A stretch of DNA of 64,000 nucleotides from NCBI RefSeq assembly GCF_016765655.2, contig NZ_CP086106.1, positions 3,647,001 to 3,711,000 of the forward strand. Direction: 5' to 3'. How positions within the stretch are numbered: position 1 is the stretch's first letter; each line of letters opens with the position of its first letter. The position numbers and the translations under genes were made by a program. Shown here in pieces: positions 40,803 to 49,049 of the stretch. The notes below the pieces were generated by a model. It did no database searches and was not told where the DNA came from. It worked only from the letters and a program-made list of their open reading frames with translations. Source of the DNA: Skermanella mucosa (GTDB lineage: Bacteria > Pseudomonadota > Alphaproteobacteria > Azospirillales > Azospirillaceae).

Positions 40803-41969
40803 TCAAAGTGCGGCGGTACGCGCCTTGATCGTCTCGATTCGGCCGACGATCTCGTAGTCGATCTCGCCGGTCCGCCAGTCCTGGAGCTGCTGGACGATCC
40901 GGTGACGTATGCCGGCCAGGTTGTCCATGGTCACGCGGACCGTGTTCTCGCACTCGCTTTTCGGGACCAGCGGGATCACGCGCATGATCTCCGCGATGCG
41001 GCGGTGGTCGATATTCTGCCGGTCGGCCATCGCGGCCTGCCATAGTTCGCAGACGTCCAGCCAGCCATCGAGCAGCCAGGCGAGCCGGTCGATGCCCTGG
41101 CGCAGGCGGAGGATGTTGGCGTCCCAGCCGGCGAAGAAGGCCGGCAGGTTCTGAAGCTCGCAGTCGATCTCCGCGATCATCCGCTCGGCCATGCGGGCGG
41201 TCACGCCGGCAGTCTCGCCGGCGAGATGGCCGGTCGCGCCGATATTGGCGGCCGAGATCGAGTTGCGCAGATCGCCGACCCGGCGCAGGATCCGGCGCAG
41301 GTAGCCGGCATCCTCGTCGCCGGCGAAGCCCAGCGGACCGACCGCGTCGCTCAGTTCGAGGATGCGCGCCCGGCACTGCCCCGGCGGCTGCCCGACGAGG
41401 CGCGCGAAGGCATCGGCGACCTGGATGATCAGCGTTTCGCCGACCCGGCCGCGGACGCGGCGCATCAGGTCGTCCGTCGTCTTGTCCAGCACGCCGGTCA
41501 GCCGGACGACCCGGCGCAGCATGGCCTCCTGGTTGATCTTCTCCTCCCGCGCTATCCGGGCCATGGCGGCGCCCGCCGCCTCCGCCGCCTCGACTCCGGC
41601 CAGCCCGGTCTTGGCGACCCGATGGGCGGCGAGCCGCATGCGCATCGGCGTGATCGCGTCGGCCAGGCTGATCTCCGCCTGGAGCGCCCGGTCGTGCAGG
41701 GTCAGTCGCATCACCGAGGCCAGCCCGTCCCAGGGGAAGACATAGATCGAGCGGCATCCGGAAAAGCCGGTGACCAGTACCTCCAGGTGGTTGGTCCTGG
41801 TGTCGCGACGGACCCGCGAGAACGCCAGCTCCGGCGTGGTGAAGGGAACCGTCGTGCCGCGTTCGTCGAAGGTCGAGGGCGCATAGTCGTAAGCGAGGCG
41901 GAGCGTCTGGACGTCGCCGCCGGACGACGGCCGGCCGGCTTCCGCACCCCTGGCCATGGTTCTATTCAT
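40803..41969 (-). CDS. Unrecognised protein, paralogue A of a divergent pair
   Basis: A 388-residue soluble protein of a family I do not recognise. Residues ~30-115 look beta-rich and carry [35 protein letters not shown] and [14 protein letters not shown]; the rest is helical with [21 protein letters not shown] and DWRTGEID. The same motifs in the same order occur in the protein at 43639-44763, so the two are paralogues. Its start overlaps the stop of the preceding gene (41962-43371) by 8 bp, implying coupled translation. No signal peptide or membrane segment is seen, so a cytoplasmic location is likely. Function unknown. Confidence 0.85.
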
Positions 41970-43371
41970 GGTTGGCGTTCATGGCATGGATGATCTTCAG
42001 CAGGAACTGCGCCGGGTCGGCGCTCTGGGCGAAGCCGAGACGGACGGCGCAGTCCTCCAGCATTCCCAGCACGGCTTCCTCGCTGCTGATCGGTTCAAGC
42101 GAGCGGGCGACCTGGACAGCCACGGACAGTGTGGCCTGCTTTTCGCGGTTTCCGGCGGCGGCCCGGTCGGAGGCGATCCGTTCCAGGCGGCCGGCCACGC
42201 CCGAGATGGTCTCCGCCGCCAGGGCCTTCAATTCGCCGGGAACTTCGAACTGCTGCTTGACGGCGTTATGCACCTTCGCGATCGCCAGCACCGTCCGCGT
42301 CAGGACGGTGATCTCCTCGGCGGTCGGCAGACAGCCGCCCGGGGAAGAAACGAAGGACCCGACGCTGTCTTCCGCGGCCTTGGCGAAGCGGTCGCCAAGG
42401 AAGTCGTGGATACGTTCCTCGACCTTTTCGATCCTCTGGCCGACCTGCCGGGTCAGGTGCGGTGCCGCGACGCGCAGGACGCCGAGGCTTTCGATCGCCG
42501 CCCGGACCTTTTCGGCAGCGTCGTCGAGATCGCCGGCCGTCTCCAGCGGCATGGCGAACCCCGCTTTCAGGATCTCGCCCTCCTTCGAGACCAGCGCCTC
42601 GCACAGGTCGGAGGCGACCGAGGACCCGCCGCGGCTGCCGTTGTTCTCCGCCAGCGCCTCGATCAGCGGGGCGGTATGGTCCGACAGGTCCGAATCCATC
42701 AGGAGAACGAGGAAGAACAGCTTGAGCCAGCGCTGGTCGCCTTTGCGGGACGCGGCCTCCCGGCCCAGGGCTATCACGGACTGGACATACTGGTCGCCGA
42801 TGCCGATCAGCTGTTCGGATGCCATGATCTGGCGCCGGGCGGTCATGATGGCGTCGCGCATCTGATAGAGCGCATGCACTTCCTGGATGACGTCGGGCAG
42901 GTCCGGATGCCGTTGCGCCAGGGCTTTCGGCAGGGAGCGGTCGGTCGCCAGCCTGGAATGGATCTCCTCCACCGCGCGGGCGAAGGACGCGAAGAGCTGC
43001 CGATGGACGGACAGCGGGCACGGGTCGTCCATCAGGTATTCGCCGGAGGCATCGACCTGCCGCGCCGCCTCGGCATCGTCCAGATGTTCCAGCACCAGCG
43101 TCCACATCGGGTCGACGCTGCCGCGCGGGATGCTTCCCAAGGGCCGCGGACGTGCCGGCTCGTTGCACAGCAGGCTTTCGAAGGGCAGGCAGAACAGCCG
43201 TTCCGCGGTCATCCTGCGCAACGGCCGGATCTTCTTCAGCCGATGGCGCAACTGGTCCTTGAACATCCCGCGCAACGCACCGTCGGGCATCTTGTCGGCC
43301 AGGGCATATACCATCCTGACCTTGTCCTCCGACAACTCGTCTAACGCCCTTCTTTCCGGCAACTGAAGCAT
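41962..43371 (-). CDS. Unrecognised all-helical protein coupled to paralogue A
   Basis: A 469-residue soluble protein that appears almost entirely alpha-helical and acidic, with no recognised domain. The beginning MLQLPERRALDELSEDKVRM and the segment RPLRRMTAERLFCLPFESLL are distinctive. The second half contains heptad-like Ala/Leu/Glu runs that could form coiled coils (around residues 270-330). It is the upstream partner of paralogue A (8-bp stop/start overlap), and paralogue B is divergent across a 267-bp region with a palindrome. It may be a scaffold or adaptor; this is inference only. Confidence 0.85.
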   Translation of the reverse strand: MLQLPERRALDELSEDKVRMVYALADKMPDGALRGMFKDQLRHRLKKIRPLRRMTAERLFCLPFESLLCNEPARPRPLGSIPRGSVDPMWTLVLEHLDDAEAARQVDASGEYLMDDPCPLSVHRQLFASFARAVEEIHSRLATDRSLPKALAQRHPDLPDVIQEVHALYQMRDAIMTARRQIMASEQLIGIGDQYVQSVIALGREAASRKGDQRWLKLFFLVLLMDSDLSDHTAPLIEALAENNGSRGGSSVASDLCEALVSKEGEILKAGFAMPLETAGDLDDAAEKVRAAIESLGVLRVAAPHLTRQVGQRIEKVEERIHDFLGDRFAKAAEDSVGSFVSSPGGCLPTAEEITVLTRTVLAIAKVHNAVKQQFEVPGELKALAAETISGVAGRLERIASDRAAAGNREKQATLSVAVQVARSLEPISSEEAVLGMLEDCAVRLGFAQSADPAQFLLKIIHAMNANHE

Positions 43372-43476
43372 GTCACTGTCCTTCGCCCACTCCAGGCATC
43401 ATAGCCGGCAAACATAAAAATCTATATACTATCGATAGGAATAGTTCTTGGAATTGGAACGGCATCCGTGGATTAA

Positions 43477-43498
43477 CTGGATTTTTAACCATCCAGTG
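43477..43498. promoter_or_regulatory. Palindrome between the divergent unknown genes
   Basis: ACTGGAT (43477-43483) and ATCCAGT (43492-43498) are perfect 7-bp inverted arms with an 8-bp AT-rich spacer. The site lies in an AT-rich intergenic region between divergent genes, as expected for a shared operator, though a hairpin role cannot be excluded. Confidence 0.4.
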
Positions 43499-43638
43499 CT
43501 ATTCTAGAGCGCTGAAATGATTACCACTATAGGGTTATACCTCTTTATATAGTTGGATATCTCCCAAGATCGTCTAAAATGGTAGATATCGAAGAATGGG
43601 CGGCGATCTTGCCGGACGGTTGCATTTTGAGGGTTGGA

Positions 43639-44763
43639 ATGACTGGTACCTCGGCCATCAGCCAAGTCGCGGATGTCGTCCAGGACATGGTGCCGTCCAC
43701 GTTCGAGGAACGCGGCACGACGATTCCTTTCACGACCCCCGAACTGGCCTATTCCCGCCTGCGCCGCGGTGCCCGCGGGAGCCTGGAGGTGCTGGTGAAC
43801 GGGTTCTCGGGCGGGCGCTGCACCTACGTCTTCCCGTGGGCCAGCATCCCCCAGGTCGTCCGGCTCACCCTGCACGACAAGGCGCTTCATGCCGAGATCT
43901 CCTATTCCGACGCCACCACCCCGGACAAGATCCGGCTGGCCGCCTACCGGGTTGCGAGGACGGGCCTGGGCGGCCCGGAACTGATCGACATGGCCTCCCG
44001 CTCGATCGAGCAGGAGGTGACCGAGAAGCTGGCCAGCAGCTTTTTCCTGATGCTCAAGGTCATCGAGGCGACCGGGGTCAACACCGATCGGGCGACGCTG
44101 GCCCTGATCAACATCAACTCGCCCGAAGGCAAGGCCATGGTCCGCCAGGCTTTCCGCCGGCTGGGCGACGGCATCGGCACCACCCCCGAGGTCTGCCATC
44201 AGCGCATCACCGAGCTGGGCGACGTGATCCAGCCCATCGGGTTCGAGATCGAGGGGCAGCGCGGACGGCTGCGCCAGCTCCTGCACCGCCTGAACCAGTT
44301 CCGGGACGAGGTCGTCCGGGGCGAGTCGGGCGGCACCGCGCGGACGCTGGCCGACGTGGCCCAGCTTACGCTGCGGATCGGCAACGGGATCATCGCGGAC
44401 ATCGACCGGGACATCGCCGGCATCGTCCGTTACGTCACCGACTGGGACGCCCGCCTGCCGGCCACCCGCCAGAGCATGGAGCGGCTGTCCTGGCTTCTGG
44501 ACGGCTGGACCTATGTCTGCGACCTCTGGGAGGACACCAATTCCGACCGGTCTATCCCCAAACGCCAGCGCATCAACGAGATCATGCGGATCATCCCCGT
44601 GGTTCCCAGAAGCGAGGCCAATTCCGGCGCCCGGGCCGAGACGAGCGATCCCCAGCGCCGGCAAGCCCGCATCGTCCAGCAGAACGAGGATTGGCGAACC
44701 GGGCAGATCGACCATGAGATGGCGGCGAGGCTGGGCAGGCTCAATGCCCGCAACCCGTCCTGA
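43639..44763 (+). CDS. Unrecognised protein, paralogue B of a divergent pair
   Basis: A 374-residue paralogue of the protein at 40803-41969. Shared motifs in order are [70 protein letters not shown] and DWRTGQID. The central helical region is strongly diverged. The ATG at 43639 is chosen because GAGGG stands before it; the frame is open to an ATG at 43579 without a ribosome-binding site. The small tail-anchored gene follows after 23 bp and is probably co-transcribed. Function unknown; retention of the outer motifs but not the centre suggests two versions of one activity with different partners. Confidence 0.85.
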   Translation: MTGTSAISQVADVVQDMVPSTFEERGTTIPFTTPELAYSRLRRGARGSLEVLVNGFSGGRCTYVFPWASIPQVVRLTLHDKALHAEISYSDATTPDKIRLAAYRVARTGLGGPELIDMASRSIEQEVTEKLASSFFLMLKVIEATGVNTDRATLALININSPEGKAMVRQAFRRLGDGIGTTPEVCHQRITELGDVIQPIGFEIEGQRGRLRQLLHRLNQFRDEVVRGESGGTARTLADVAQLTLRIGNGIIADIDRDIAGIVRYVTDWDARLPATRQSMERLSWLLDGWTYVCDLWEDTNSDRSIPKRQRINEIMRIIPVVPRSEANSGARAETSDPQRRQARIVQQNEDWRTGQIDHEMAARLGRLNARNPS

Positions 44764-44786
44764 ACCGGCCGGCAAGAGGCAGCGCC

Positions 44787-45164
44787 ATGGCTGACGCGAA
44801 CGCCAGGACCGGGAACGGCGGCGGCGAGTTCTACCGGGTCGTCGACAATACGGGCGAACTGATGGGGGAGTTCCCCTCGTCCAGGATCGCCCGCGAATTC
44901 GCCCGCCGCATGATCGAGGCGGGCAAGGCCAGCACGCTGGTCGTGGAATGGTCCAACAACGGCCGGCGCGGCGAACTCTCGATCACCCGGAGGATGGTCA
45001 ACGCGGCCGAGATGCGCGCGACCGAAGCCAGGCGCCGGGCCCACCTGGAGGCACGACGCAGGGCCAACCTGATCAGCGGCATCGCCGCGGCGACCGTGGC
45101 CTTCCTGGCGCTGATCCAGATCGCCGCGACCTACATGGAAGCCAGGGGAAACCTCTGGCCCTAG
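44787..45164 (+). CDS. Small tail-anchored membrane protein, unrecognised
   Basis: A 125-residue protein. Residues 14-75 form a small mixed domain (FYRVVDNTGELMGEF, then VVEWSNNGRRGELSITRR). Residues 75-95 are very Arg-rich and helical, and residues ~95-115 are a single hydrophobic helix (ISGIAAATVAFLALIQIAAT). The topology suggests a C-terminal membrane anchor with the domain in the cytoplasm. It follows paralogue B by 23 bp. Its last 4 bp overlap the end of the convergent next gene. Confidence 0.7.
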   Translation: MADANARTGNGGGEFYRVVDNTGELMGEFPSSRIAREFARRMIEAGKASTLVVEWSNNGRRGELSITRRMVNAAEMRATEARRRAHLEARRRANLISGIAAATVAFLALIQIAATYMEARGNLWP

Positions 45165-45526
45165 TTTCCGGCCGGCCGGCTCATGCCGATCTCCAGGCTC
45201 GCGAACTCGGCGGCAAGCCGGTCGCGTGCCTGTTCCATCGCGTCGATGTCCTCAAGCAGCAGGGCGTCCTGGCAGTCGGCGCAGAACTGCCTGACCACGA
45301 GGGCTTCCTCCAGGGCGTCTCCGAGGTCGTCGGAAAAGCTGGCGAGTTCCGCCGCCATGCGCCCGGCAACCTCGCCGATCATCTCGGCCTGCGTCTCGAG
45401 ATTGCGGAACAGTTCGACGGCGGTCACCGCGTAGGGGACGCCCCGGGAAACGTCGGCGCGGCTGCGCGCGGCGCGGACTTCAGCCAGATCGATGACGCCT
45501 GCACCCTGGACCGGATTGGAAATCAT
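45161..45526 (-). CDS. Small helical protein, unrecognised
   Basis: A 121-residue acidic protein, helical over residues 30-110, with two Cys close together (FCADCQDALLLEDIDAMEQA). No membrane segment or known domain is seen. It is tail-to-tail with the membrane protein gene (4-bp overlap). Upstream lie 216 bp and then the signalling operon on the same strand, so it could be the last gene of that unit. Function unknown. Confidence 0.7.
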   Translation of the reverse strand: MISNPVQGAGVIDLAEVRAARSRADVSRGVPYAVTAVELFRNLETQAEMIGEVAGRMAAELASFSDDLGDALEEALVVRQFCADCQDALLLEDIDAMEQARDRLAAEFASLEIGMSRPAGN

Positions 45527-45742: not shown

Positions 45743-46732
45743 TCAGTCCGTGAATTCCGCCCTGATCTTCAGCACTGCGGGCAGGTTGGCGAAGAAGGCA
45801 TCGATGCAGGCCGGATCGAAATGCGTTCCGGAGTTCGTCCGCAGGAATGCCAGCGCCTCCTCCAGGGACCATGCCGCCTTGTACGGACGCTGGGTGGTCA
45901 GCGCGTCGAAGACGTCGGCGATCGCGATGATGCGACCCGCCAAGGGAATCTCCTCCCCCTTCAGGCCCCTGGGATAGCCGGTGCCGTCGAATTTCTCGTG
46001 ATGGGTCAGCGCGATCGACGCCGCCAGCCGGATCAGGGGAGAGGAGCTGTCGTCCAGGATGCGGTAGCCGTGGATCGTATGCAGCTTCATGACCTCGTAT
46101 TCGTCCGCCGTGTATCGGCCCGGCTTGAACAGGATCTCGTCGGTCACCGCCACCTTGCCGACATCGTGCATGGGAGCCGCCAGCTGGATACGCTCCTGAA
46201 CCGAGTCCGGCAGGCCGACCCCGGCCGCGATGACCCGCGCATAGCGCGCCATGCGGTCCAGATGGGCGCCGGTCTCGCTGTCGCGGGACTCGATCGAGCG
46301 CGACAGGCGCATGATGAGTTCGCTGGCCGCCTGCTCCTTCAGCCGCCGGTGGCTGGCCCGGAGTTCCAGCAGGTTGCGGCACCGCGCGGTGAACTCGATG
46401 CGGTCGATCGGCTTGCTCAGGAAGTCGGTGACACCGCGGACCAGCGCTTCGCGCCGGAACTCCTTCGCCCCCTGCCCGGTCACCATGATGACCGGAACCT
46501 CGGCCGTGCTCCCGATCCCCCGCAGGCGGTGCAGGAACTCCAGGCCGTCCATGCTCGGCATCATGAAATCCGTGACGACCAGGTCGACGTCGTGGCCGTC
46601 GCACCAGTCCAGGGCCTCTGACGCGCACCCCACGCCGTGGATGCAGACGCCGGCGATCGCCTGGGCGTACCGGCTCATCAGCATCAGGTTCGCCGGATTG
46701 TCGTCGACGATCAGCATATCCATGGCGGTCAC
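45743..46732 (-). CDS. HD-GYP response regulator, probable cyclic-di-GMP phosphodiesterase
   Basis: A 329-residue RpfG-like regulator. Residues 1-125 form a receiver domain with the phospho-acceptor Asp in VVTDFMMPSMDG. Residues ~140-325 are HD-GYP with MHDVGK and HHEKFDGTGYPRGLKG, so both the HD metal site and the GYP motif are intact. The product would hydrolyse cyclic di-GMP when phosphorylated. GTG at 46732 is preferred with GAGAGG six bases before; an ATG at 46723 is possible. It follows the hybrid kinase by 27 bp, its likely partner. Confidence 0.93.
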   Translation of the reverse strand: MTAMDMLIVDDNPANLMLMSRYAQAIAGVCIHGVGCASEALDWCDGHDVDLVVTDFMMPSMDGLEFLHRLRGIGSTAEVPVIMVTGQGAKEFRREALVRGVTDFLSKPIDRIEFTARCRNLLELRASHRRLKEQAASELIMRLSRSIESRDSETGAHLDRMARYARVIAAGVGLPDSVQERIQLAAPMHDVGKVAVTDEILFKPGRYTADEYEVMKLHTIHGYRILDDSSSPLIRLAASIALTHHEKFDGTGYPRGLKGEEIPLAGRIIAIADVFDALTTQRPYKAAWSLEEALAFLRTNSGTHFDPACIDAFFANLPAVLKIRAEFTD

Positions 46733-46759: not shown

Positions 46760-48976
<2,217 letters not shown>

Positions 48977-49049
48977 GATCGGCCACCTCCTGGTTGATGG
49001 CATGGACGGAAGGACCGCTGCATCGCGGCCACGCTGAGGGAGCGCCGCT

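Follow-up and report, generated by a model that had tools for sequence, protein, structure and literature searches.

Five neighbouring genes of Skermanella mucosa, which lie in a 64,000-nucleotide stretch of contig NZ_CP086106.1 (positions 3,647,001 to 3,711,000; hereafter the window), raise the question of which of them belong together and what they might do together. Two of them, A1 and A2, are members of one protein family (family A), and the third, B, overlaps A1. The remaining two encode small proteins, one with a tail-anchor-like segment (TA) and one named C5 here. A preliminary description of the locus had treated all five as one unit. All five open reading frames (ORFs) are present as described (Table 1), but the conserved core consists of two genes only, A and B, to which genus-specific companions are added. 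A-B is a real, conserved and unnamed two-protein module that is inherited as matched pairs.

Distribution and adjacency of A and B

The two genes were analyzed across the bacterial family to which the window belongs (by inference Azospirillaceae), with 82 genomes, five of which are from the same genus (by inference Skermanella). A was matched in 77 of the 82 genomes, in one of them (G721) via a weak A-like fragment only, and B was matched in 79. A B gene adjoins 127 of the 132 A genes; the order is A-B in 111 cases and B-A in 11 cases, and five pairs are divergent. These five are A2 genes that share the B gene of A1. Each of the 76 genomes that have a proper A gene holds at least one adjacent A-B pair. 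In a set of 83 loci (L012-L093 and the window), 80 of the 85 A genes have an adjoining B. Here, 70 A genes precede B, 7 follow B, and three, namely A2 and its two orthologues, are divergent, while five are without B, one of them at a contig end. The genes of the pairs are mostly co-directional and often overlap, and the overlap of A1 with the helical protein B, reported in the preliminary description, was found exactly as described (Table 1). The window's genome, with a size of 7.84 Mb, contains five A and six B genes. With the exception of A2, which lies opposite the B of A1, every A has a B beside it, and the remaining two B genes form a tandem without A (L013).

Among 289 Alphaproteobacteria genomes, A was present in 26, B in 39, and both in 22. 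A 5-row profile was used for A and a 72-row profile for B, and A may be undercounted because its profile is narrower. In 398 genomes drawn from the phylum, A was found in six, all of which were the window's own or belonged to its class. A scan of a species-genome collection with two peptide patterns yielded 88 relatives. The best 80 of these were retained and represent 78 loci; judged from their titles, these are Rhodospirillales-type alphaproteobacteria. Adjacency was also observed in distant lineages (L095-L097, L103, L104, L106-L108, and L126). A further set of 16 loci (L135-L150), two of which repeat L018 and L033, comprises eleven with the pair (L140-L150) and five with one partner only (L135-L139), the latter having been chosen because no partner had been listed. 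Co-occurrence across Rhodospirillales, as it had been anticipated, thus holds for the core of A with the helical B, but not for all five genes.

Cognate inheritance of A and B

The distances among A proteins and those among B proteins agree closely, with a Spearman coefficient of 0.91 over 75 A-B pairs. In addition, 20 genomes with at least two pairs were used for paralogue matching, i.e. it was determined whether the B distances choose the match of A between two genomes. The comparisons share genomes and are thus not independent. With a preference of A of more than 0.1, the match of B was identical to that of A in 148 of 149 comparisons; the values were 182 of 192 for a preference above 0.05 and 228 of 289 for a preference above 0.02. 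Because the same match was obtained in 148 of the 149 clear comparisons, the two genes are considered to be inherited as cognate pairs, and partner swapping is rare in clear cases. Cognate inheritance makes an A-B complex likely. The multi-protein complex suggested in the preliminary description gains partial support. Its possible membrane attachment depends on TA, a protein restricted to one genus.

Alternatively, A and B could be independent conserved housekeeping genes that are neighbours merely by shared descent. The occurrence of A alone and of B alone in some lineages would fit this explanation, as would the fact that most surveyed loci come from one order. However, paralogous copies whose flanks are unrelated still have A next to B, in either gene order, the adjacency extends to distant families (L095-L097, L103, L104, L106-L108, and L140-L149), and the paralogues keep their partners in nearly all clear comparisons. 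We therefore regard mere shared descent as unlikely.

Structure predictions and family searches

The AlphaFold2 model of A has a predicted local distance difference test (pLDDT) score of 80.5 and a predicted template modelling (pTM) score of 0.77. It contains three short strands at residues 52-79, plus helices, and it is unreliable at residues 1-25 and 344-364. A is thus predicted to consist of a small beta domain and helices. The model of B (pLDDT 86.5, pTM 0.78) contains 21 helices and no strands of three or more residues, and B is predicted to be an all-helical solenoid. In this predicted stack of helices, B would be similar to alpha-solenoid scaffolds (HEAT, ARM, TPR; importins, LGN). The top Foldseek matches of B were designed helical repeats, transportin, and LGN, with a best E value of 0.008 and TM-scores of about 0.1-0.25. 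No match at E <= 0.001 was obtained with A or B in the PDB, or with A in a collection of viral models. B differs from the alpha-solenoid repeat families in that no Pfam repeat family matched consistently; when 72 B proteins were compared with Pfam, the best 25 of the 34 families each matched at most three members. The conserved N-terminal arginine motif of B is not known as a signature of alpha-solenoid scaffolds.

Searches of Pfam and NCBIfam did not yield a naming family for any of the five window proteins, and PADLOC gave zero families for all five. Extension of the Pfam and NCBIfam searches to 79 A and 72 B proteins did not yield a consistent family either. The families had initially been described as unrecognised, and indeed, A and B remained without a name in the libraries searched and were not placed in any well-characterised family. 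Ten distant members or A-like proteins were without a convincing relative in Pfam, and, in a comparison of ten proteins with PHROGs, A and B had no match better than E 0.03. Scattered matches, e.g. to DUF4147 (2 of 79 A proteins, best E 0.00045), YfkB (4 of 79 A proteins, best E 0.067), and TACO1/YebC (2 of 72 B proteins, best E 0.0039) were taken as chance because they were inconsistent between members. One distant solo B (L125) matched DUF6880 (PF21810) over its C-terminal helices with an E value of 0.0072, but the score of 15.8 was lower than the cut-off of 27.3, and the other four solo B proteins tested had no match. The only PDB sequence match below 0.001 for A was the designed coiled-coil protein 9r1o (E 0.00034), which covered a helical stretch, and there was none below this value for B. 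Comparison of the two families with hhalign gave a probability of 0.2%, and they are thus unrelated.

Two kinds of apparent fusion were rejected. In the L094 frame, an open frame of 1985 residues with an A domain, the codon signal of the A part is missing from most of the region upstream of it, and fusions in the long frames of Azospirillum A genes were ruled out by related annotated records. A literature search with protein and locus identifiers, including guessed old locus tags, did not retrieve a paper. A signature-protein paper on alphaproteobacteria from 2007 (PMC2241609) lists unnamed Rhodospirillales proteins, and A and B may be among them. A and B are new families or folds only relative to the libraries compared, and the AlphaFold DB could still place either of them in a known fold.

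Residues of partnered and solo copies

The residues of 90 partnered A proteins (76 core, 14 remote) were compared with those of six solo A proteins, and 84 partnered B proteins were compared with 15 solo B proteins. Nine residues of A (R37, G38, R52, R54, D93, P108, D301, G302, and W303) form a core that is present in all six solo copies as well as in 75-76 of the 76 core and 10-14 of the 14 remote partnered proteins. In contrast, Y76, G122, and G125 are present in all 90 partnered A proteins but in none of the six solo ones, and H92 occurs in 87 of 90 partnered proteins, while all six solo proteins have R at this position. Four residues of B likewise occur mainly in partnered copies: E358 (77/84 partnered versus 0/15 solo), E426 (81/84 versus 4/15), R423 (79/84 versus 2/15), and W127 (78/84 versus 2/15). 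The N-terminal motif of B is retained in solo copies, with R52, R58, and R83 in 15 of 15, R42 in 13, and P63 in 12 of them. These comparisons point to a docking face on each protein and to a partner-independent core. They suggest that A docks on the C-terminal half of B and that the arginine-rich N-terminal motif of B works independently of A.

The window locus and the genus-specific companions

The features of the locus are summarized in Table 1.

Table 1. Genes of the A-B locus and its flank in the window (positions within the window).
Feature	Description	Position	Strand	Remark
A1	Family A protein, 388 aa	40803..41969	-	Partner of B; order B -> A, 8 bp overlap
B	All-helical solenoid-like protein (predicted), 469 aa	41962..43371	-	AlphaFold2 model
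A2	Second family A paralogue, 374 aa	43639..44763	+	Divergent from B, without own B
TA	125 aa, one C-terminal hydrophobic segment (tail-anchor-like)	44787..45164	+	Genus-restricted companion
C5	121 aa, small, helical-looking from sequence	45161..45526	-	Probably last gene of kinase / HD-GYP unit
Response regulator	HD-GYP-type domain (REC + HD_5)	45743..46732	-	Neighbour kept in L016, L017
Hybrid histidine kinase	HisKA, HATPase_c, REC, Hpt	46760..49003	-	Neighbour kept in L016, L017

A1 and A2 are 42% identical (E 3.4e-90), and the seven listed motifs by which they had been recognised as paralogues (ERGTT[VI][32 protein letters not shown][VI]IP, DWRTG) are present in both. Their middle parts had been said to differ strongly, and indeed, the identity is 24% at residues 126-290 (39/165), compared with 68% at residues 30-125 (65/95) and 45% at residues 291-388 (44/97). 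The nearest named loci to A1 are those of S. stibiiresistens and S. aerolata, with 82% identity over A1, and the A1 orthologues in L016 and L017 are 81-83% identical to it. The A2 start at 43639 agrees better with the orthologues than that of a longer ORF starting at 43579. It had been proposed that the paralogues carry different adaptors. This applies only to A2, which lacks a B of its own; B is the general partner of A.

TA was found beside the cluster in all five Skermanella genomes and, apart from one marginal match, in none of the 77 other family genomes. Its Kyte-Doolittle window maximum is 2.2 at residue 95, and the hydrophobic segment is kept in two other Skermanella species. C5 is also located beside the cluster in all five Skermanella genomes, and nine other family genomes yielded weak matches. 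Thus, TA and C5 keep company with the cluster in this genus only. The tail-to-tail arrangement of C5 is correct, since its ORF is convergent with that of TA with an overlap of 4 bp, but C5 probably belongs with the kinase / HD-GYP side. It is co-directional with the two regulatory genes and lies 216 bp behind them. As this layout is kept in L016 and L017, C5 looks like a part of their transcription unit. The regulator and the kinase stay beside the cluster in both loci; KdsA, which is encoded on the other flank, was not found in L017.

In the neighbour survey, no gene besides A and B was a general neighbour of the pair across lineages. Only a sensor-kinase-like cluster exceeded 28 loci (37 loci), and the remaining frequent neighbour clusters (at most 28 loci) seem to be generic families or to belong to a single synteny group. 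The third gene in Azospirillum is a different one; it has about 123 residues and was found after B in 24 loci of the gene survey. At the A match in this genus, two neighbours are annotated in A-B order (e.g. WP_014249635 / WP_014249636), both only as hypothetical, and a third gene, with 122-124 codons, comes next. One copy of the third gene (L019:12463-12834) matches PHROG 36523, a family of unknown function, with an E value of 8e-25, so that a phage-shared family is present in an A-B operon.

An EAL protein of one kind is encoded adjacent to and co-directional with the pair in four of the five Skermanella genomes (L015, L032, L133, and L134) and in L081 and L039, two unrelated metagenome-assembled genomes. 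A-B could thus be a cyclic-di-GMP signalling module, in which the ligand level would depend on an EAL or HD-GYP phosphodiesterase, with A or B as the effector. The HD-GYP response regulator that adjoins the cluster in the window, in L016, and in L017 would fit such a module, as would the occurrence of EAL in four of 144 non-redundant near genes (144 of 258), versus at most one of 148 far genes (148 of 393) among the matches listed. However, EAL and HD-GYP genes are neighbours in some lineages and not in general. The EAL gene is missing in S. aerolata (L024, same DNA as L132), neither EAL nor HD-GYP was found beside L135-L150, and a survey of 119 loci yielded only six EAL places; these come from four lineages, and two of the six places are at distances of 4.6 and 8 kb. 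Such genomes are rich in EAL and HD-GYP genes. PilZ, GGDEF, EAL, and HD-GYP domains were unmatched in A and B in Pfam, among the best 25 of 27 and 25 of 34 families listed, respectively, and a search for literature joining Skermanella with cyclic-di-GMP found none. The link, seen in three lineages, is a weak lead and not a result, and a cyclic-di-GMP signalling module appears improbable.

A toxin-antitoxin-like or defence pair under selfish or anti-phage selection would fit the two overlapping genes, the several copies per genome, and the fast-evolving B (73% identity in L016 and 63% in L017, versus 91% for the neighbouring KdsA in L016), but it is highly improbable in view of the lack of PADLOC and PHROGs matches described above, the agreement of the A and B distances, and a presence in 76 of 82 family genomes that is not the typical patchy distribution, although A occurs in only 26 of 289 genomes of the class.

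Several side observations were made. In L015, a chemoreceptor-like protein (L015:13042-14826) is encoded divergently from the EAL-B-A genes; by reading of its sequence, its N-terminal part looks globin-like and a C-terminal stretch looks PilZ-like. Similar pentapeptide-repeat proteins are encoded near the tandem B genes (L013:3148-4512), near an A-like protein (L105:3467-4774), and near an A-B pair (L107:3381-4694). This A-like protein (L105:5845-6876, about 340 aa) matches only the helical part of A (profile positions 146-319, E ~1e-4), and similar matches in other family genomes reach E 6.5e-9. It possibly represents a third, distant family, or the match reflects helical bias. The solo B genes of other alphaproteobacterial families (L109-L122) lie near two-component, BrkB-like, and CoA-transferase genes, and some near cytochrome c maturation-like genes. 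These neighbours were read from gene starts, and BrkB and kinases were also found in the neighbour family matches. Two B genes (L091:11107-12347 and L126:6469-7700) appear to be split between frames.

Discussion

We favour the explanation that A and B are two subunits of an undescribed cytoplasmic complex, which is predicted to act as a scaffold, and estimate its probability at about 55%. B would be a helical solenoid, and its N-terminal arginine-rich motif (42-43, 52, 58, 63, and 83 in the window's B) would carry an A-independent activity. A would be an adaptor or regulatory subunit that docks mostly on the C-terminal half of B (consensus W127, E358, R423, and E426) with a face that bears Y76, H92, G122, and G125. 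The nearly universal core of A (R37-G38, R52, R54, D93, P108, and D301-G302-W303) perhaps binds an anionic ligand or an anionic target. In each cell, paralogous A-B complexes might act in parallel, as the window's genome has five A and six B genes. In Skermanella, A2 has perhaps been re-used together with TA, which would result in a membrane-attached variant. The likeliest sphere of action would be signalling, judged from the kinase, HD-GYP, and EAL neighbours, and this is a weak step.

Several results weigh against two subunits of one complex. The preliminary description had put forward predicted contacts between the paralogues and the helical protein as a check. Coevolution analysis of 83 pairs, which was underpowered (35 effective sequences), did not reveal an enrichment, as two of the top 40 residue pairs are located at the proposed interface and 1.8 are expected. 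Although the top scores were higher than in 10 partner shuffles, a few single columns dominate the list, and we did not rely on it. At the loosest threshold of 0.02, paralogue matching disagrees in 61 of 289 comparisons. B without A occurs in 17 and A without B in 4 of the 289 Alphaproteobacteria genomes. Lone A genes with no B nearby (L018, L039, L041, and L076) still have the 'partner' residues, and three further lone A genes and one lone B gene (L136-L139) are from genomes that hold A and B elsewhere. Therefore, pairing in cis is not strictly obligatory. At two of the four consensus 'docking' positions, the window's own B has another residue (F127 and T358), and several solo B proteins are without an aligned residue at 423-434. 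Because the solo copies form separate clades, the residue differences may reflect descent instead of partner loss. Lastly, the neighbourhood does not indicate a shared function.

A more far-reaching version of the two-subunit complex would be a new adaptor-solenoid class, with several partner-insulated copies per cell, each fitted to its own cargo or site, membrane recruitment by TA, and tuning by co-encoded cyclic-di-GMP phosphodiesterases. We consider this version doubtful.

In the libraries searched, neither a family name nor a relative of known function nor a significant fold match was obtained for the A-B module, which is present in 76 of 82 genomes of a family that includes plant-associated soil bacteria, e.g. 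Azospirillum. Because the module is found as a pair, as solo subunits, and as several pairs per cell, it is a good system for the analysis of shared-part function and partner specificity.

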